Notes under the pieces: model-generated
Seen by the model: only the letters and a program-made list of their open reading frames with translations
What the model was told of the DNA's origin: nothing
Database searches by the model: none
Part shown: positions 1 through 9,132 of the stretch, one piece after another
Layout of the letters: the number at the start of each line of letters is the position of its first letter
How positions within the stretch are numbered: the first letter of the stretch is position 1
Source of the DNA: Candidatus Poribacteria bacterium
GTDB lineage: Bacteria; Abyssobacteria; SURF-5
Direction of reading: 5' to 3'
NCBI GenBank assembly: GCA_016215705.1
Contig: JACRIR010000177.1
Coordinates: forward strand, 1 to 9,913
DNA length: 9,913 bases
Translations under genes and position numbers: made by a program

Positions 1-194
1 ACTCCTTCATGCGCTCTTTCAAACTCGACTATTTGACGTTTCATCCAGGTGAATCGGTCGATGGAATCGGGGCTCTCCCGCCAGCGCGGGAACTCCCAAA
101 TCTTGATGGTGAGAGGCTTCCGGTCCGCGCCACAACCGATGAAAATGGCTGCGCAGATCAGAGGGAAAAGCAAAAGACGGCGTTGCGCGGCCAT
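1..194 (-). CDS. Partial ABC-transporter solute-binding lipoprotein (N-terminus only)
   Basis: An open frame begins at the ATG at 194 and runs off the left edge, giving 64 codons and two further bases. The product starts MAAQRRLLLFPLICAAIFIGC: a positive n-region, a hydrophobic core and a lipobox-like FIGC with Cys21 as the likely lipidated residue. The mature part has the segment PLTIKIWEFPRW and then IVEFERAHEG. A beta strand with an I-W pair followed by a helix ending in 'EFE..H.G' is typical of the start of family 1 extracellular sugar-binding proteins of ABC transporters, so that is the proposed role: capture of a solute on the outer face of the inner membrane. No in-frame ATG, GTG or TTG was found just upstream, and no clear Shine-Dalgarno precedes the ATG. 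The gene lies 110 bases after the transglycosylase gene on the same strand. No permease or ATPase is visible, so the substrate is unknown. The assignment rests on a short N-terminus. Confidence 0.65.
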   Translation of the reverse strand, partial: MAAQRRLLLFPLICAAIFIGCGADRKPLTIKIWEFPRWRESPDSIDRFTWMKRQIVEFERAHEG

Positions 195-232
195 AACACG
201 AAATTGGATGAGAGTAGCGCCGATAACACGAA
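193..232. repeat. Two 10-bp direct repeats overlapping the start of the solute-binding gene
   Basis: ATAACACGAA occurs at 193-202 and again at 223-232, a 30-base period or about three helical turns. The first copy overlaps the start codon of the lipoprotein gene. The spacing fits a regulator binding one DNA face, but no regulator gene is nearby and the repeat could be chance. Confidence 0.3.
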
Positions 233-304
233 GAAAGAGCTTAACGTAGTCAAGTGAGTCTCGGGGGGGGACGTTCCTATTGAAGCCAAAGGCAGCGTTT
301 GCAG

Positions 305-2257
305 TCATGGGAGCTTCGCTATATGCTCTTGCCTGACAAAAATCTTGCCGCTGTCCGATTTCAGCCAAATGCCTCCTGTAGCTTTCTCATATGCGTTTCC
401 TCGCATGGTATTGCCGTTCTTCAAACGGATAATCACGCCGCTAGCCGGCGCCGACGGCTCGGGCAGCCTTGGGAACGAGATGACTTCAGTGACTGTTTCA
501 ATCTCTTCTTCATAAGTCTCCGGTTCCGGCAAATAGTCCATCGCGGGCTTCTTGTTGAGCGCCACCGTGAGCTTCACGGGTTTCGTGTCGTATTTGTACT
601 TTTCGTAGTAACTCAGCACCTTAGGCACGTAATCTTTTGTCTCTCTGTACGGCGGAATTCCGCCGTACCGAAGGACGGCGCCGGGTCCGGCGTTGTAGGC
701 CGCGAGCGAAAGCTTGAGGTCCCCATTGAAAAGCTCGAGCATTCGCGAAAGATATTGGACGCCGCCCCCAACGTTTTGTATGGGATCAAATATATCCTCA
801 ACCTGCATGTCGAGAGCAGTCGAAGGCATGAGCTGCATGAGGCCGCGGGCTCCGCATCTTGATACAACATATGGGTTGAAATCAGATTCGACCTTCATCA
901 CAGCCTTCACAAGAGCAGGCGCCACTGCATATTCGCGCGAGTATAGTTTTATTATTTCCTCGAGATCGAACTCTTCGGTCTGAGGCTGGCCTTCGACCCT
1001 CTTGACAACCTTTGTCCTCGTGATTTTCTTTACCGGTTCGTAATTTATGAGAACATAATCGTCTCCAACGTCCTTTGGCTCGCTCGTGAGAAGCAGTAGT
1101 CCCGATTTGTTCTCATAGATGAAGATGTCGGGACTCTTTCCCTCTTTCCCATACAAGGAACGGGGCACTTTGCGTTTGGCAGCCGACTCTTCCTCTTTTT
1201 GCTCGGGCTCGCGCGCGACACGGTCGTCACACGTGCGCTTGCGGTCGCTGATCGATGCAGACTGCGGGTCAACGCGCCCGGCGAGATCGTATATCTGTTT
1301 TGTCTGCGCGCTGCACGAAAGATTGAAGAACTCCTGGCCCACGAGAGTCGGCGTGAGAGGAATCCGCCTCCCTTCCTTCTCGAGCGCGTGTAAGGCGCCG
1401 TGCACGTCTTCCAAATATCCCTTGGCCGACGAATATCGAATCTGGCTCATATAGTAGTCCAGGCGGTCGCGGGTGGGGGTTGACATTGGCCTGGCGTCCT
1501 TCGAGAGAATAGTCATCCAAACATTCGTGACGGCCTCGACGGCCCTCCTGAACGAAGGAACAACAACATCGTCTTTGCACGCCCGATATCCCGCTCCGCC
1601 GAGGTATTTGTTCCTGACAAAGTTTTCTGACTTACGGGCCTCACTCGATTTGCGGTCGATATAGGTGTCGGGATACGAGAGACACATGGTGGACACACTG
1701 CGGACCTTCAGCGAATCGATGTCGCCGTCGATGTCGCTTTCCAGTTTGCCTTGCAGCACTTTGTCCGATGGGTCGGATGAACAAGAAAACGGCAACGTCG
1801 AATCTGCAACGGCACGGCTGAGCACGCCCAGGCGGTAGGCATAATAATGCGAAAGTTCGTTGCCGTTGTGCGGAAGAAGCGTGAGTAGTTGGATGTCAGC
1901 CTTCGGGTCCTGATCGGCCGTGACGCCGTTCTGTGTCGGCTTCTTCCCATTCTCCTGGCCGGCGGCATCCAGAATATCACTCTCATAGCGAATGATTTTC
2001 CCCTGGTAGGATGCGGGAAGTTGTTCGAGGGCAAGTTCCGCAATCTTGCGGTGAGTGCGTTCCCCCCATGCAGACACATTAGCAGGAAGCAATAAAACGA
2101 CGCCCGCAATCGCAACTGCAAGCATCATGCCCCTAATTCGGGGACACGATGCCTCCTTAATATGGGGACACGATGCGACATCGTGTCCCCATATTAAGGA
2201 AAAGAGCCGCCAACTTCTTGAAAGCGTGGCGAAAAACCTCCTCTTTGGCAAGGTCAT
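305..2257 (-). CDS. Exported lytic transglycosylase (SLT domain) with phospholipase C/S1-P1 nuclease-like N-terminal region
   Basis: The 650-residue product probably acts in the periplasm or envelope, cleaving peptidoglycan glycan strands. The SLT domain (about 430-555) has the expected marks: catalytic Glu457 in VMKVESDFNP, GLMQLMP at 472-478, AAYNAGPGAV at 519-528 and TKDYVPKV at 540-547. Upstream, about 364-407 resembles the DUF4124-like segment (IFIYENKSG) often seen before SLT domains. Residues 44-63 form a hydrophobic signal sequence ending NVSA, so the mature protein would begin WGERTH. A mature N-terminal Trp with His at position 6 matches the zinc ligands of S1/P1 nucleases and relates to zinc-dependent phospholipase C. 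A later ADSTLPFS keeps the Asp and Pro of that family's helix but lacks the usual His residues, so this region may not be catalytic. Residues 605-650 form a small beta-rich tail (RLKNGNTMRG). The start is uncertain: ATG 2257 has AAGGA directly against it, while ATG 2128 or 2125 begins at the signal sequence, after a palindromic element. Confidence is high for SLT, moderate for the N-terminal fold. Confidence 0.88.
   Translation of the reverse strand: MTLPKRRFFATLSRSWRLFSLIWGHDVASCPHIKEASCPRIRGMMLAVAIAGVVLLLPANVSAWGERTHRKIAELALEQLPASYQGKIIRYESDILDAAGQENGKKPTQNGVTADQDPKADIQLLTLLPHNGNELSHYYAYRLGVLSRAVADSTLPFSCSSDPSDKVLQGKLESDIDGDIDSLKVRSVSTMCLSYPDTYIDRKSSEARKSENFVRNKYLGGAGYRACKDDVVVPSFRRAVEAVTNVWMTILSKDARPMSTPTRDRLDYYMSQIRYSSAKGYLEDVHGALHALEKEGRRIPLTPTLVGQEFFNLSCSAQTKQIYDLAGRVDPQSASISDRKRTCDDRVAREPEQKEEESAAKRKVPRSLYGKEGKSPDIFIYENKSGLLLLTSEPKDVGDDYVLINYEPVKKITRTKVVKRVEGQPQTEEFDLEEIIKLYSREYAVAPALVKAVMKVESDFNPYVVSRCGARGLMQLMPSTALDMQVEDIFDPIQNVGGGVQYLSRMLELFNGDLKLSLAAYNAGPGAVLRYGGIPPYRETKDYVPKVLSYYEKYKYDTKPVKLTVALNKKPAMDYLPEPETYEEEIETVTEVISFPRLPEPSAPASGVIIRLKNGNTMRGNAYEKATGGIWLKSDSGKIFVRQEHIAKLP
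2130..2200. repeat. Palindromic (REP/MITE-like) element inside the 5' end of the transglycosylase frame
   Basis: A perfect 22-bp inverted repeat lies at 2154-2175 and 2179-2200 around a 3-base loop (CGA). A third, partial copy adjoins it: GGGGACACGATGC occurs at both 2140-2152 and 2164-2176. The outer left part, CCCCTAATTCGGGG (2130-2143), is itself a short palindrome. The core GGGGACAC with AT-rich flanks resembles repeats scattered in environmental genomes, which I recall being linked to REP-associated (RAYT/Y1) transposases; no transposase is present here. The element is open in the gene's frame and encodes about residues 20-43, including the internally repeated ASCPHIK / ASCPRIR. Confidence 0.8.
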
Positions 2258-2310: not shown

Positions 2311-4785
2311 TTAGCGTGTAATGCCTTCGCCGGAGGCGGCAAATACCGTGATCTTCGTTGGGCCGCCCCCAACTTCTATTGTGTTGACGACATTGAGACT
2401 GTCGGCGCTGATGACCGAGGCGTTGTTATCGAAGCGATTCGTCGCGTAGATATACCGGCCGTCCGGACTGACTGCGACTCCGCTCGGCCCATTGCCTAAC
2501 GAGACTTCCCGAATAAGCGAAATGGTCTCGGTGTTGATGACCGAAAGCGTCTTTGAGAGGAAATTCGCACAGTATAAATACTTGCCGTCAGGCGAGAGCG
2601 CGATGGCTTCGGGCCGGTCTCCGACTCGAATCTCACCCACTATTTCCGAGTTCGCCTTGACCACGTATACGCGGTCGTCGATGGAATCGCTGACATATAT
2701 AGTGGCGTCATCCGGGCTCAAGGCAATCGCGTTCGGCGAATGGCCGACTCTTCGCGTTGAGATAACCTGGTTAATGCGAGTGTCGATGGCCGAAAGCGTC
2801 GCTGAATCCCTGTTTACGCAATACAGCTTGCTGCCGTCGTGCGAGACAGCAAGCGCCACAGGACCGTTCCCGACATTGATCGTTGCTTGCACTCCTGACT
2901 GCGCCCCCGCCTGCAACACCCCGACAACCGCAACCGTCGAGTCAGCATCGTTCGTCACATAGACTACCTGGCCATCCGGTCGCACCGCCAACACGCGCGG
3001 CGATCCTCCGATGGACGTCCTCGTAATCGAGCCGTCGCCCTTTGCATCAATGGTAAGTAACGAATCACCGTACTTCATAGTCACATAGAGGTTGCGGCCT
3101 TGCGGGTCGACGGCCACGTCCTCGGGACGGTCCCTCAGACTGAACCGGGAGACAACCTGGTTCGTCCGGGTGTCAACAGTCACGATTTCGCGAGTATCAG
3201 CGCTTACGATGATTGCGCTTCCGGGCGTCAGCCCCACGCCTCCGACTCTTGCGTCCAGAACCGCAGCCCTTCTCTCGAGCGCGGGCACCAGGTGAGCAAC
3301 ATCAAAGCGCTCAGGCCGCTCGGTTCCAGAGTCCGCTTCACTCCGGGCAAACTCAGGCTCGCGCGCGCCGCCGGCAGACTTGTCGGCTGCCACAGTCGCC
3401 GACCCATTTGGCGCGCCCGTGCGAGGCTCAGTCTGTTTATCGTTCCCCTGTTTGTCATTCCCGCGAAGGCGGGAATCCATAGGTTCCTCCAGCTCGCTCG
3501 TGTGAGGCGCAACCGGGACCGGCGTCTCGCTCGGTTTTGCAGGTGCGACATGCCGGGACCAGCGCGCTTCTTTCTCAGCAACAGATCTCTGGTCCTCTTT
3601 CTCATCCTCTACGACGCGACTCGTCTCTTTGTGAGTTTCAGGAAACCCCACCGCGCTGACCGTGCCAGGCGAAGATGGTAGCCGGTCGGCTAAAGGCGCT
3701 GAAACCGTTGAATTGATAACGGAGGATTCAGTCTTCTGGCTTGCCGCCACAGCGCCCGTGAGGATGTCAGGTGGCAGCATCTGCAATTGGTTGGCTCCTC
3801 CGACGCTTATCACCGCCGCCCCACTGCCTGGAATCATGGCAATGTGGGACGGAGAGTCCCCGATCAAGATTTCGGAGCATCCGGTTCTTGACGGGTCCAC
3901 AACGGCCAAGGTGTCGCTTTCCCTGTTGACTACATAGACCTTCGAGCCGTCATCGCTCGTCGCAACGGAAATAGGTCCCTTGCCAACCTTTGTCGCGCGC
4001 ACGACTACAAGATTCTCTGTATCAATAGATAGAAGCCTGCCGGTATGGTAATCCACAACAAACAATCGGTCACCTTTTGGAGAAAGAGTCATCGCGCGCG
4101 GGAATCCACCCGTCTCTATGGCTTTGACCGGCTTCCCAGTGGCCAGATCAATCACAATGACGGCTGCCTCTTCGCGAACCGAAACGAAAAGCCGACTCCC
4201 GTCGGATGAGACCGCCAACCCTTGCGGATAATCATTCAATGGGATGATCGCCAGAGCTTTTCCTGCCGCTGCGTCTATCACGGTTACGCTCTGTCCCATC
4301 AGATTCGCCACGTAGAGCTTCTTGTCATCCGGCGAAAAAGCTACTCTCGTCGGGCCGTCGCCCACTTCAACCTTCGCCGCAACCTTATCAGTCCGCGGAT
4401 CGATGAGCCAGACGTCCCGCGAAAGAAAATTCGCGACCGCGAGCAGCGAGTTGTCGCTCGCAATGGAAAGAGCCACAGGCCCGTCACCCGCAGGTATGTC
4501 CTTCACTTTCGAGAACTTCGCCAAATCTGTGATACTCAGGTTGTCCGAGCTGAAGTTTGCGACATAAGCGTAGGCGCTGTCTCGCGTGACAACTACATCC
4601 TGTGGATTTTCGTTTACAGCTGCGGAAGTAATGGGCAAGTTTCCTGCCAATACAGGGTTGGAAAGGAGAGATTGACATGCGGCAATGGCAATAATGCCAA
4701 AGACGACAGCAGAACGAAGACCAAAGCGCCTCAGAAGACTTCGATAGCCGACCATATTGCAGGGTCTGAGATTCTGTGTAATCAA
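2311..4785 (-). CDS. Exported double YVTN beta-propeller protein
   Basis: From the preferred start the product is 824 residues. It contains many repeats of about 42 residues with the pattern 'GDGP..VA.SPDGK.LYVAN....TVSVID', the YVTN/lactonase-like beta-propeller blade. With residues counted from the TTG at 4878, the first propeller spans about 88-375, a Glu/Lys/Pro-rich linker about 376-540 and the second propeller about 545-850. Each stretch is long enough for about seven blades. Such proteins usually serve as extracytoplasmic binding or surface proteins; no catalytic residues are evident. The N-terminus has RRFGLRS and then a hydrophobic stretch with IAAC, which fits a lipobox, and further on NPVLA-GN, which fits signal peptidase I cleavage. 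The start was chosen as TTG 4785 because GAGGAG lies 6 bases upstream. The longer frame from TTG 4878 has no Shine-Dalgarno and would translate repeat DNA (MDSRESGNDE). ATG 4755 is another option. The gene ends 53 bases before the ATG 2257 start of the transglycosylase frame. Confidence 0.9.
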   Translation of the reverse strand: MITQNLRPCNMVGYRSLLRRFGLRSAVVFGIIAIAACQSLLSNPVLAGNLPITSAAVNENPQDVVVTRDSAYAYVANFSSDNLSITDLAKFSKVKDIPAGDGPVALSIASDNSLLAVANFLSRDVWLIDPRTDKVAAKVEVGDGPTRVAFSPDDKKLYVANLMGQSVTVIDAAAGKALAIIPLNDYPQGLAVSSDGSRLFVSVREEAAVIVIDLATGKPVKAIETGGFPRAMTLSPKGDRLFVVDYHTGRLLSIDTENLVVVRATKVGKGPISVATSDDGSKVYVVNRESDTLAVVDPSRTGCSEILIGDSPSHIAMIPGSGAAVISVGGANQLQMLPPDILTGAVAASQKTESSVINSTVSAPLADRLPSSPGTVSAVGFPETHKETSRVVEDEKEDQRSVAEKEARWSRHVAPAKPSETPVPVAPHTSELEEPMDSRLRGNDKQGNDKQTEPRTGAPNGSATVAADKSAGGAREPEFARSEADSGTERPERFDVAHLVPALERRAAVLDARVGGVGLTPGSAIIVSADTREIVTVDTRTNQVVSRFSLRDRPEDVAVDPQGRNLYVTMKYGDSLLTIDAKGDGSITRTSIGGSPRVLAVRPDGQVVYVTNDADSTVAVVGVLQAGAQSGVQATINVGNGPVALAVSHDGSKLYCVNRDSATLSAIDTRINQVISTRRVGHSPNAIALSPDDATIYVSDSIDDRVYVVKANSEIVGEIRVGDRPEAIALSPDGKYLYCANFLSKTLSVINTETISLIREVSLGNGPSGVAVSPDGRYIYATNRFDNNASVISADSLNVVNTIEVGGGPTKITVFAASGEGITR
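3457..3476. repeat. REP-type palindrome inside the propeller linker
   Basis: ATTCCCGC (3457-3464), loop GAAG, then GCGGGAAT (3469-3476) form a perfect 8-bp stem. This is the common repeat that appears in translations as CHSREGGNP, PAKAGIH or DSRLRGND. Here it is read in frame by the propeller gene as MDSRLRGND in the linker between the two propellers, where an insertion would be tolerated. Confidence 0.8.
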
Positions 4786-4791
4786 AGAACT

Positions 4792-4797
4792 CTCCTC
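4792..4797 (-). promoter_or_regulatory. Ribosome binding site deciding the propeller start
   Basis: On the minus strand GAGGAG is followed by AGTTCT and then TTG (4785-4783). The 6-base spacing is near ideal. It favours the non-ATG start at 4785 over the longer frame that reads through repeat DNA. Confidence 0.6.
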
Positions 4798-4827
4798 AGA
4801 AACTGACGCTGGAATCATGTTTTGTTC

Positions 4828-4907
4828 GTCATTCCCGCTTTCGCGGGAATCCATGTTTTCTGGTCGCGACCCTTTCAAGAATTGATTCCCGCCTTCGCGG
4901 AAATGAC
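4828..4907. repeat. Inverted pair of REP palindromes between leuS and the propeller gene
   Basis: The first copy has ATTCCCGC (4831-4838), loop TTTC, GCGGGAAT (4843-4850). The second has ATTCCCGC (4885-4892), loop CTTC, GCGGAAAT (4897-4904) with one mismatch. They face opposite ways: GTCATTCCCGC at 4828-4838 can pair with GCGGAAATGAC at 4897-4907 (10 of 11). The pair lies just downstream of the leuS stop. It resembles the BIME arrangement of paired REP sequences, which in other bacteria can slow transcription or protect mRNA 3' ends. It has no T tract typical of an intrinsic terminator. Confidence 0.75.
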
Positions 4908-4919
4908 AAAAAGTTGTGG

Positions 4920-7388
4920 TTATTTCGCAACTATATTCACCAGTTTCCTGGGGACCACAACGATTTTCTGGACATTCCTGGAATTCACATGGCTTGCGAC
5001 TCTCGAATCGTCCATCACGGCCTTCTTCAGGTCTTCTTCACTACAATCAGACGGAACGGTGACGTGGCTGCGCACCTTGCCGTTCACCTGGACGACTATC
5101 ACCATTTCGTCGGCTGCTATTGCATTTTTGTCGTAGCCCGGCCATTGTTCCCTCAGCAGGCTCTTCGTGTGTCCGAGCCGCGACCAGAGCTCTTCGCAGA
5201 TATGCGGCGCCATCGGATACAAAAGCGCAACCAGCTTTTCGAGAGCCTCCCTCAGAACCGCCGGCCTCGCGCCTTCGAGGTTGAGCGTATACATCGCGTT
5301 GACCAATTCCATCAAGGCGCTTATGGCGGTGTTGAAATGGAAACGCTCTTCGATGTCTTCTGTGACTTTCCGGGTGGTCGCGTGTGCGATCCGTCTCAAC
5401 TCACGCTCGGAGTCAGTAAGCTTAGGCGGAATCTCGGAGTTGCCTTCTCGCAGTTTATCCAGATGCTGGTGCACGAGCCGCCAGACACGGCCAAGGAACC
5501 TATACGCGCCCTCGACCGCGCGGTCGTTCCATTCGGCGTCTTTGTCCGGCGGTCCGATGAAGAGGGTATATACCCGCACGGTATCGGCGCCATACTTTGT
5601 GATAAGCGCGTCGGGCGAAACCACGTTGCCTTTGGACTTCGACATCTTCGCGCCGTCTTTGATTATCATGCCCTGTGTGAAAAGATTCGAGAACGGCTCA
5701 TGGAAATTGATCAGTCCGAGATCGCGTATGACTTTCGTGAAAAAGCGAGAATACATCAGATGAAGGATCGCATGCTCGATGCCGCCGATATATTGGTCGA
5801 CTGGAAGCCACTTATTGACCAGATCCGAATCGAAGACGCGCTTTTCATCGTGCGGCGAGAGGTAGCGCATGTAGTACCAGCTCGAGTCCACAAACGTGTC
5901 CATCGTGTCGGTTTCGCGCTTCGCCGCACGACCGCAATTCGGACACGTCGCATTCACGAACTCTGGCGAGCGCGCGAGCGGCGACTCGCCCGTCGGCTTG
6001 AACTCGACGTTTTCAGGCAGATAAACGGGCAGGTCTTTCTCGGGTACGGAAACAGTCCCGCAGGTCTCGCAATAAATTATGGGAATCGGTGCGCCCCAAT
6101 AGCGCTGGCGCGATATGAGCCAGTCGCGCAGACGATAATTGACCGTGCGCTTGCCGATGCCCTGCTCCTCCATCCAAACGCCGATCTTCTCGATGGTCTC
6201 GCGGCTCGGAAGTCCCTCGAACTGGCCGGAGTTTGCAAGGAACCCTTCGTCCTCGTAAGCCCTCTCCATTGTCGATTCGGAGAGATTGCGCTCGGGATTC
6301 TGAATGACGACCTTGATCGGCAAGCCGAACTTCTTGGCAAACTCGAAATCGCGCTGGTCGTGCGCGGGCACGGCCATGACTGCGCCAGTGCCGTATTCCA
6401 TGAGCGCGTAGTTGGCTATCCACAACGGAACAATGTCGCCATTGACCGGATTCTTGATGTGCTTGCCGATGAACATACCTTCCTTCTCGAGTTCGGCTGA
6501 AGTGCGTTTGATCCGGTCGATGCGGCGGCAGCGCTCGACGAAGTCGGCCACTTCTTTCTCGATTGATGTTCCGGCTGTCAGACGCGCCACAAGAGGGTGC
6601 TCCGGCGCGAGCACAAGATAAGTCACTCCGAAGATAGTGTCGGGCCGGGTCGTATAGCAAGGGATCGCTTCGCCGGTTTCGGCAAGCCGGAAGTCTATCG
6701 TCACGCCGTGGCTCTTGCCGATCCAGTTGGTCTGCATGGTCTTGACGCGCTCGGGCCAATCGCCGAGGTGACTCATGTCAAGAAGCTCTTCGGCATAGGC
6801 GGTAATCTTGAAGAACCACTGCTCGAGGTCGCGCTGGGTCACACCTGTGCCGCAGCGCTCGCATTCTCCGTTTATCACCTGCTCATTCGCGAGAACAGTC
6901 GCGCACGACGGGCACCAGTTCACCGCCGCCTTCTTCTTATATGCGAGCCCTTTCTTATAGAACTGGAGAAAAAGCCACTGAGTCCACTTGCAGTACAGCG
7001 GCTCGCACGAGGCAAACTCGCGGTCCCAGTCGTACTCGACGCCCCACTGGCCAAGTTGTTTCTTCATTCGCCCTATATTGTTCCACGTGCTGATCTTGGG
7101 ATGAATGTTCAGCTTGATGGCGGCGTTCTCGGCCGGAAGCCCGAATGCATCCCACCCCATCGGCGCAAGCACATTGAATCCCTTCATAACCTTATAGCGC
7201 GCAAGCACGTCGCCGATGATGTAGTTCCGGCCATGTCCAACGTGCAGTTCAGCCGACGGATACGGGAACATCATGAGACAATAGAACGTCGGCCTCGGCG
7301 AGTCCGGGTGCATCTTGAAAAGCTTGTTTTCACGCCAATGGCTCTGCCATTTATGCTCTATTTCTTTGAAATTATACTCAGCTTCCAT
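4920..7388 (-). CDS. leuS: Leucyl-tRNA synthetase
   Basis: The 822-residue cytoplasmic enzyme charges tRNA(Leu) with leucine using ATP; the length is normal for bacterial LeuRS (about 800-880). Class I signatures are present: HVGH at 49-52 (HIGH motif) and KMSKS at 581-585. The CP1 editing domain, which hydrolyses mischarged tRNA, carries TTRPDTIFG (246-254) and GTGAVMAVPAHD (333-344), including the conserved Asp344. Cysteine pairs typical of zinc-binding insertions are at 159/162 with 176/179 and at 440/443 with 482/485. The C-terminus (about 755-822) shows the expected tail with VVQVNGKVR. The ATG at 7388 follows GGGGAAAG on the minus strand at a plausible Shine-Dalgarno distance, and the product starts with the usual YNFKEIEHKWQ. 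It is 137 bases downstream of the membrane-protein gene and probably has its own promoter. All catalytic motifs are intact. Confidence 0.98.
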   Translation of the reverse strand: MEAEYNFKEIEHKWQSHWRENKLFKMHPDSPRPTFYCLMMFPYPSAELHVGHGRNYIIGDVLARYKVMKGFNVLAPMGWDAFGLPAENAAIKLNIHPKISTWNNIGRMKKQLGQWGVEYDWDREFASCEPLYCKWTQWLFLQFYKKGLAYKKKAAVNWCPSCATVLANEQVINGECERCGTGVTQRDLEQWFFKITAYAEELLDMSHLGDWPERVKTMQTNWIGKSHGVTIDFRLAETGEAIPCYTTRPDTIFGVTYLVLAPEHPLVARLTAGTSIEKEVADFVERCRRIDRIKRTSAELEKEGMFIGKHIKNPVNGDIVPLWIANYALMEYGTGAVMAVPAHDQRDFEFAKKFGLPIKVVIQNPERNLSESTMERAYEDEGFLANSGQFEGLPSRETIEKIGVWMEEQGIGKRTVNYRLRDWLISRQRYWGAPIPIIYCETCGTVSVPEKDLPVYLPENVEFKPTGESPLARSPEFVNATCPNCGRAAKRETDTMDTFVDSSWYYMRYLSPHDEKRVFDSDLVNKWLPVDQYIGGIEHAILHLMYSRFFTKVIRDLGLINFHEPFSNLFTQGMIIKDGAKMSKSKGNVVSPDALITKYGADTVRVYTLFIGPPDKDAEWNDRAVEGAYRFLGRVWRLVHQHLDKLREGNSEIPPKLTDSERELRRIAHATTRKVTEDIEERFHFNTAISALMELVNAMYTLNLEGARPAVLREALEKLVALLYPMAPHICEELWSRLGHTKSLLREQWPGYDKNAIAADEMVIVVQVNGKVRSHVTVPSDCSEEDLKKAVMDDSRVASHVNSRNVQKIVVVPRKLVNIVAK

Positions 7389-7525: not shown

Positions 7526-8161
7526 TTAAATCCATTTCAGCAGCGCGCCGAACACGACTAGGCACACAACGTCCAATCCAAGTAAGGTCACAACCGTAAC
7601 GATTTTCCTTCTAACGGTTTTCATATCATAAACCCAGATGGAGCTTGAAACCAACGGCAGATAGGCGACGAGAAAGATGAGCCATGGCGCACGCGCATTC
7701 CACCAGGAATAGTCCCATGTGAGCGCGTTTACCGAGTTGAGAAGTATCTCGATGAAAACGCAGATGATCGCGTAGACAACCGCGAAGAAGGGTCGATTCG
7801 GGACCCCCAGCACTTTCAAGCTCTTGTCCGGCGGCAGCATTTTGGCGAACACGATGCCGAGGATGGCGAAATTCAAACAGATTTCGATGTTCAGGCCGAT
7901 GAGAGGCAGGTACGCCGTTTTGCCCGGCGCGCCCCACAATGGGGTGTAATTGGTGAAATGGAATACGAAAGAGTTTAAGATTTCGAAGAACCAATCCGTC
8001 GTCCAGAGCATCAGACCCGCGAACACGAGATTCCAGTTCCTGCGTTCGATCTCACAGGCATAGACATACATCACCAGCACAAAAATCGGTATCACATACC
8101 ACTGAAACTGACTGCCGTCTCTGAGAATGCTCAAAGCTCGCTGCGCTGAAGGGGTGGGCAT
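7526..8161 (-). CDS. Unidentified integral membrane protein, six predicted membrane segments
   Basis: I do not recognise this 211-residue protein. It shows six hydrophobic stretches likely to cross the inner membrane: about 21-37, 44-66, 85-107, 124-144, 158-177 and 187-209. Loops are short and rich in Trp and aromatic residues (WTTDWFFE at 53-60, WDYSWWNARAPW at 149-160). Acidic residues lie within segments 2, 3 and 4 (Asp56, Glu60, Glu93, Glu138), which could mark a ligand or ion site. A positively charged KTVRRK before the last segment suggests that loop is cytoplasmic. The ATG at 8161 follows AGAGGAG with 7 bases between, a good Shine-Dalgarno. There is no signal peptide. It heads the minus-strand series, 137 bases before leuS, but no sequence link to leucine charging is seen. 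No enzyme motif was found and no function is proposed. Confidence 0.85.
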   Translation of the reverse strand: MPTPSAQRALSILRDGSQFQWYVIPIFVLVMYVYACEIERRNWNLVFAGLMLWTTDWFFEILNSFVFHFTNYTPLWGAPGKTAYLPLIGLNIEICLNFAILGIVFAKMLPPDKSLKVLGVPNRPFFAVVYAIICVFIEILLNSVNALTWDYSWWNARAPWLIFLVAYLPLVSSSIWVYDMKTVRRKIVTVVTLLGLDVVCLVVFGALLKWI

Positions 8162-8481: not shown

Positions 8482-8547
8482 TCTGGCAAGAACGATCAAG
8501 GCGCAGCACCGTTTGAGAAGATACTGAAAATGAGGGGACCTACTGCC

Positions 8548-9132
8548 ATGCCCGTAACCTACAGGAACAGATACGGCAAGACCTATTTCCTTCATGGGGG
8601 CAAGACCAAGACCGGCAAGGATAAGTATTACTTCTCTTTGAAGGAACAAGGCGCTCTTGCGGACGGGATACCTGACGGATACGAGGTATATGAGAATCCC
8701 CATGCGCAGGTGTTTCTGCGGAAAAGGCTGGTGACGCTGCTGAAGGAGGTCGAAATAGAGACACTTGACAGCAGCATAAAGGAATGCGCATCACTGAAAC
8801 CATATCAGTACAAGATTGATTACAATAAGGACACTATGACAGTGTACTTACTCGATGACGATTTCGACAAAGTGGTTCAGACAATCAATCCGCACTACAA
8901 ATACGATGAGAAGAAAAAGATAGACTGGGCCAAAAGGTACGGCGTTTATACTGCGATGATGCGATTCCGTCTCGTTGACGAAAAAGATCGCGTATTTGAA
9001 GCTGAGCGATATTGCTTCCTCGGAAGCATAGATGAGTGGATATCCATCGGCGCTCCCGGCAAATTGAAGCCGCTCGCAAGAAAATATGTCCGCCACCTGG
9101 GCAAGGATTCCTTTTACCAGATCGATCTATAG
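8548..9132 (+). CDS. Conserved hypothetical protein (MPVTYRNRYGKTYFL-type)
   Basis: The product is 194 residues from ATG 8548, or 200 from the upstream in-frame ATG 8530. I prefer 8548 because GAGGGG (8532-8537) precedes it, although the 10-base spacing is long, and because the family-like sequence begins at MPVTYRNRYG. The N-terminal 60 residues, with YRNRYGKTYFLH, KTKTGKDKYYF and IPDGYEVYENP, resemble an uncharacterised family of soluble proteins found sporadically in bacteria; I know no function or domain name for it. The C-terminal part (about 125-190) is likely alpha/beta and aromatic, with WAKRYGVYTAMMRFRL, RYCFLGSIDEWI and KYVRHLG. No signal peptide, membrane segment, DNA-binding motif or catalytic signature is seen. 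G+C is lower than in its neighbours (24 of 60 at 8821-8880), which fits acquisition by transfer. It is alone on this strand, with its own promoter. Confidence 0.88.
   Translation: MPVTYRNRYGKTYFLHGGKTKTGKDKYYFSLKEQGALADGIPDGYEVYENPHAQVFLRKRLVTLLKEVEIETLDSSIKECASLKPYQYKIDYNKDTMTVYLLDDDFDKVVQTINPHYKYDEKKKIDWAKRYGVYTAMMRFRLVDEKDRVFEAERYCFLGSIDEWISIGAPGKLKPLARKYVRHLGKDSFYQIDL

Follow-up and report, generated by a model that had tools for sequence, protein, structure and literature searches.

The window, i.e. the whole stretch of 9,913 nucleotides of Abyssubacteria DNA that was analysed, carries on its minus strand a leuS gene (4920..7388, −) at the head of a conserved gene order, a gene for a double YVTN/lactonase-type beta-propeller (2311..4878, −), a gene for an exported-type fusion of a phospholipase C (PLC)-like domain, a TPR-like stretch and an SLT lytic transglycosylase domain (305..2128, −; 607 aa plus stop, homologues L003 and L004), and the 5' part of a gene for an ABC importer in which a solute-binding protein is fused to a permease (SBP::permease; 3..368, −), cut by the contig end. 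Dispersed repeats of type GTCATTCCCGCGAAGGCGGGAATCCA, in direct as well as inverted orientation, occur at 3448-3480, 4823-4854 and 4881-4913, inside the propeller gene and at its 5' end. Two further ORFs, at 7526-8161 (−) and 8530-9132 (+), showed no significant Pfam or NCBIfam match; the former resembles a multi-span membrane protein.

The frame of the fusion gene is open further upstream to an ATG at 2257, which gives a 650 aa long form with 43 extra residues before the signal peptide. The earlier note had placed the gene at 305-2128, which stands for the 607 aa short form, where the mature N-terminal Trp is residue 21, but its residue range 64-300 belongs to the numbering of the 650 aa form. 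A signal peptide was predicted by inspection in residues 1-20 (2069..2128, −), with cleavage at ANVSA^WGERTH, and, again by inspection, the A-x-A^W arrangement before the Trp is shared by the homologues and by most of the 30 family loci compared. A palindromic repeat with 22-nt arms and a 3-nt loop, together with a half copy, is present at 2131-2200, within the 5'-terminal part of the ORF, and separates the two candidate start codons. The 27-nt core of the repeat matches the genome about 250 times per strand at ≤3 mismatches, as against 0 for a control pattern, and the homologues lack the repeat. The repeat is apparently a REP/MITE-like element, inserted in frame into the signal-peptide region.

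Profile matches and alignment placed a degenerate zinc-dependent PLC-like domain in mature residues ~1-195 (1484..2068, −) and a TPR-like helical stretch in mature residues ~196-289 (1202..1483, −). Profile positions ~200-286 of the latter match TPR-type proteins in many genomes, and the stretch lines up with the first part of the TPR tails in a sister family described below. A linker and a small segment (953..1186, −) precede the SLT domain; by eye this part was DUF4124-like, an assignment which is unsupported for residues ~315-392, as no Pfam match was obtained even at E 10. The SLT domain (residues 393-497; 638..952, −) was the sole Pfam match of the 607 aa protein (PF01464, E 2.6e-28, 98.4 bits against a cut-off of 21.3). 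The expected motifs ES (E414), GLMQLMP and AYNAGPG are all present, as the earlier note had read, and solved enzymes, Slt70 and MltC among them, are matched across these motifs by the profile of the domain. The domain is apparently intact, and its muralytic activity is predicted. The protein ends in a small all-beta domain (LKNGNTMRG.., about 5-6 strands; 308..450, −; model pLDDT about 60-82), which is kept in 3/3 fusion copies and found no match in a Pfam search.

The 289 residues from WGERTH onwards matched no Pfam or NCBIfam model at E≤1, neither PF00882 nor PF02265 being hit directly by the N-domain, and a PDB profile search with the N-domain alone gave matches at chance level only. We ran a profile of the three Abyssubacteria N-domains over 386 bacterial genomes, and it retrieved intact stand-alone Zn_dep_PLPC proteins of one genus (L008-L010) at E-values, reckoned per genome, of 4e-14 to 2.6e-13. 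Two of these stand-alone proteins, when tested, matched PF00882 at 1.5e-15 and 8.6e-19, and L008 matched the solved phospholipase C of Bacillus cereus at about 3e-4, with HYxxD-QPxH-FHSKxE aligned. Comparison of the three-sequence profile with the intact set by hhalign gave E 1.7e-13 over 187 columns, and a broader seven-sequence profile gave E 6.8e-15 over 189 columns. By this chain of sequence comparisons, rather than by fold, the N-domain is judged homologous to PF00882 through its intact members. Of the profile searches proposed in the earlier note, both Zn_dep_PLPC and S1-P1 were negative as direct Pfam matches, and the link to Zn_dep_PLPC came from the comparison of profiles with intact PF00882 members. 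An AlphaFold model of the N-domain, made from a two-sequence alignment, was all-helical with a pLDDT of 48. The C-terminal half, treated alike, reached 39, its fairly confident part being the last 45 residues or so, that is, the small beta domain. Since even the well-known SLT domain failed to be modelled there, the low pLDDT of the N-domain is no evidence against a PLC/P1 fold, and its model is no evidence for one either.

With PF00882 (B. cereus PC-PLC, 1AH7) and the S1-P1 nucleases (PF02265) the N-domain shares the mature N-terminal Trp and H6, the LGxLxxxxxD...P helix followed by a KxE segment, and a collinear domain of ~190 residues; it differs from both in that five of its nine zinc ligands are not conserved, in its fusion to TPR-like and SLT parts, and in lying below Pfam detection. 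The ligands of P1, whose numbering is used here, are W1, H6, D45, H60, H116, D120, H126, H149 and D153, and H14 is a further Zn3 ligand in B. cereus PLC. In the latter enzyme, Zn1 is bound by D55, H69, H118 and D122, Zn2 by H128, H142 and E146, and Zn3 by W1 and D122 (PMC10420013). Alignment of the fusion copies to the intact proteins revealed that W1, H6, D120 (mature D89) and E153 (mature E110) are kept in 3/3 copies. The H116 position is R, L or V in the three copies, the H126 position S, A and (depending on gap placement) A or P, and the H149 position Q, Q and R; the equivalent of H60 is lost in all three, and the D45 position is N or D and not conserved. H74 and H67 were considered as the H60 equivalent and rejected: one copy has Arg in place of H74, and the family His lines up with neither residue. 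The balance is 4/9 canonical ligands kept, namely the full Zn3 set and one Zn2 ligand, and the complete trinuclear zinc site (D45, H60, H116, D120, H126, H149, D/E153) is absent in 3/3 copies. That Zn3 is complete whereas the catalytic sites are incomplete is suggestive only, being read from nine positions in three sequences; by the same measure, 'invariant' within the fusion refers to three sequences and is a weak test.

These data bear out most of what had been read from the sequence at first sight. Trp1 and His6 of the mature N-terminus WGERTH are both invariant in two homologues from the same phylum (45-54% identity), so that the poor conservation of these residues, named in advance as evidence against the idea, was not found in any of the 3/3 copies. 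The segment ADSTLPFS keeps its Asp and Pro and has lost the flanking His residues (R85, D89, P93 and S95 in mature numbering of the window copy), and the description of a degenerate zinc-hydrolase domain is upheld by the PF00882 homology together with the five lost ligands.

As five of the nine metal ligands are not conserved, the N-domain is probably a pseudoenzyme in which the catalytic trinuclear site is gone, and from which no phosphodiester hydrolysis would be expected. The retained E153, together with N or D at the D45 position, may denote a different metal site. To our knowledge, no pseudoenzyme has been described in the PLC/P1 family, and none turned up in a search of the literature. 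Other PF00882 family members, judged by two matches above cut-off (G000:C120, L023; G000:C184, L035), coexist with the degenerate fusion in the window's genome. We consider it unlikely that the N-domain is still an enzyme, for example a mono- or di-metal phosphodiesterase or phosphatase of teichoic-like polymers or lipids, which would catalyse through W1, H6, D89 and E110 along with D31, D58, H67, D112, D114 and D116 as the SLT domain cleaves glycan. The invariance of four canonical ligands and several other Asp/His residues in 3/3 copies is in keeping with such an activity, but H60, H116, H126 and H149 have all been replaced, no two copies having the same residue at H116, and the sister family keeps the domain while losing nearly all the remaining ligands.

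Among 60 genomes searched, the full fusion was found in 2 further genomes only, both of them Abyssubacteria and one of them Ca. Abyssobacteria SURF_17 (QZKI01000072.1). Their N-domains are 54% and 45% identical to that of the fusion in the window. The fusion gene is thus present in 3/3 Abyssubacteria genomes of the searched collection, and scans of genome-contig and viral-contig collections found SURF_17 alone. No published mention of a PLC-like/SLT fusion was found in the literature searched; to that extent the earlier view of an undescribed architecture stands, and the fusion is retained throughout its phylum.

The three-sequence Abyssubacteria profile also found proteins with TPR-like tails in two genomes of a second phylum (that of G278), at 2e-22 to 3e-19. 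These are not mere TPR cross-hits, as the matches cover model positions 1-285, in contrast to the ~200-286 of TPR-only matches. With the seven-sequence profile, the domain was found in 66/68 genomes of the second phylum, nearly always as two paralogues. All other matches at E≤1e-3, from outside the two phyla and the genus of the intact proteins, are confined to the TPR-like part (about 170-286). It is plausible that the second phylum is Hydrogenedentota, because the original description of Abyssubacteria placed them inside the candidate phylum Hydrogenedentes (PMC6121073).

The sister family (L037-L066 and others) consists of exported-type degenerate PLC-like proteins with TPR parts and an invariant mature Trp. 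In 32 aligned sister sequences, W1 is present in 32/32, H6 in 0/32, D120 in 8/32 and E153 in 1/32, while the P of DxxxP is found in 31/32. The residues preceding the W fit signal-peptidase cleavage, with A-x-A^W in most. Thus, the sister proteins have the same degenerate N-domain and conserved mature W1 as the fusion, but differ from it by loss of H6 in all sampled and of D120 in most, and by a TPR-like tail (in those tested) in place of SLT, no SLT domain being found in the ORFs of 30 sister loci. Four sister N-domains, when tested, matched no Pfam model. Over seven sequences of the two phyla, 18 columns are invariant, W1 and G2 among them. In a tree of 38 sequences, the domains of the three Abyssubacteria copies come together in a single clade (97/100), which groups with four sequences of one sister paralogue type (91/99; the program flags long branches). 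The persistence of W1 in the alignment, where the other zinc ligands have been lost, hints that the exposed N-terminal Trp may have a role apart from catalysis. It appears improbable that the N-domain is a mere maturation or stability cap, or a spacer for SLT, which binds no partner. The degenerate domain is carried on a wholly different tail (TPR) in the sister phylum and its function is inferred only, both of which would suit a cap or spacer, but the 18 invariant columns across two phyla and the W1 of all 32 sister sequences suggest a specific constraint. It is very improbable that the N-domain has no Zn_dep_PLPC homology and has converged on a helical bundle whose N-terminus bears a WG..H motif: this reading could draw on the lack of a direct Pfam match at E≤1 and on the N-domain pLDDT, but the matches to clear PF00882 members are collinear over 187-189 columns, at E 1e-13 to 1e-15.

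The neighbourhood of the fusion gene was compared in the three Abyssubacteria genomes, the propeller gene lying upstream of it in the same order in 3/3 and the importer gene downstream. Contig C59 continues the cluster of the window through an exact 141-nt overlap. The order in SURF_17 is leuS, double YVTN propeller, fusion, SBP::permease, permease, SPOR/SpoIID, NamZ, GH3, AnmK and Amidase_3, and it is the same in the third genome (G001). On C59 of the window's genome, the order is SBP::permease, permease, SpoIID/LytB, NamZ, NagZ, AnmK and an Amidase_3-type protein, with NagZ, AnmK and SpoIID/LytB above the NCBIfam curated cut-offs. SpoIID, NamZ, NagZ, AnmK and Amidase_3 are thus co-located in order in 3/3 Abyssubacteria genomes. 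The importer of the cluster is a sugar-type ABC importer; the binding protein and its own ABC permease are fused in one chain (L005, 9761-12226; L075, 2-2221). An AmpG model found AmpG in 0/3 Abyssubacteria genomes, and the same search found it in the E. coli control. MurQ (MurNAc-6-P etherase) gave no match above cut-off in the three genomes (G000, G001 and G002), though AnmK is present.

The genes of the cluster nearly touch, which makes their co-transcription likely. NamZ and NagZ appear by eye to have no signal peptides, and therefore breakdown would be cytoplasmic after import. The conserved cluster suggests a role of the fusion in peptidoglycan recycling, membership being no proof of it. 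A NamZ-NagZ muropeptide recovery cluster is known in Bacillus subtilis, where NamZ, NagZ and amidase genes stand together as in Abyssubacteria. Peptidoglycan recycling through an ABC importer has a precedent in YejBEF-YepA (PMC9790009), which, like the Abyssubacteria cluster, has an ABC importer in place of AmpG. As compared to both these systems, the Abyssubacteria cluster adds the SLT fusion, SpoIID, AnmK, the SBP::permease fusion and the propeller, and it differs in the apparent lack of signal peptides in NamZ and NagZ.

A complete SLT domain is common to the fusion and to family 1 transglycosylases such as Slt70 and MltC (PF01464). The N-terminal part of Slt70 is a U-shaped helical superhelix, and MltC and MltF have N-domains of their own. 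In contrast, the N-terminus of the fusion consists of a PLC-like pseudo-domain and a TPR-like stretch, and an extra beta domain is present at the C-terminus. The earlier note had proposed the N-domain as a binding or targeting module for envelope polymers; this is an inference, which the recycling cluster makes more specific. We consider it likely that the protein is an exported lytic transglycosylase of a recycling operon, with an N-domain derived from a PLC/P1 enzyme that serves as a docking or anchoring module. After Sec export, cleavage at A-x-A^W would leave Trp1 exposed as the mature N-terminus. There the Zn3 set of W1, H6 and D89, with E110 close by, could bind one structural metal at most, pinning the N-terminus; Zn1 and Zn2, the catalytic sites, are lost. 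The pseudo-domain and the TPR-like stretch would then dock or anchor the SLT domain either to the envelope or to partner proteins, for which the propeller and the importer are candidates; the dead N-domain would probably act as a holder or targeting part, not as a second blade. The SLT domain would cut glycan strands to 1,6-anhydro-MurNAc products, which the co-encoded Amidase_3 and SpoIID may trim, the co-encoded ABC transporter would import in place of AmpG, and NamZ, NagZ and AnmK would degrade in the cytoplasm.

Beyond the earlier note, the present analysis adds the homology evidence, the ligand balance, the phylum-wide conservation, the sister family in which W1 is constant, and the recycling cluster. 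We tentatively put forward, as a possibility, that a PLC/P1-type fold became a non-catalytic, Trp-defined envelope module before the two phyla parted, steering an SLT enzyme in AmpG-independent recycling through an ABC importer in Abyssubacteria, and serving as a near-universal, two-copy, TPR-linked protein in the other phylum. A probable PLC/P1 pseudoenzyme is kept in nearly every genome of one phylum, and in a neighbouring lineage it is joined to a cell-wall enzyme. Abyssubacteria are bacteria of the deep subsurface, and the gene cluster represents a predicted AmpG-free route of peptidoglycan recycling for these uncultured subsurface bacteria.
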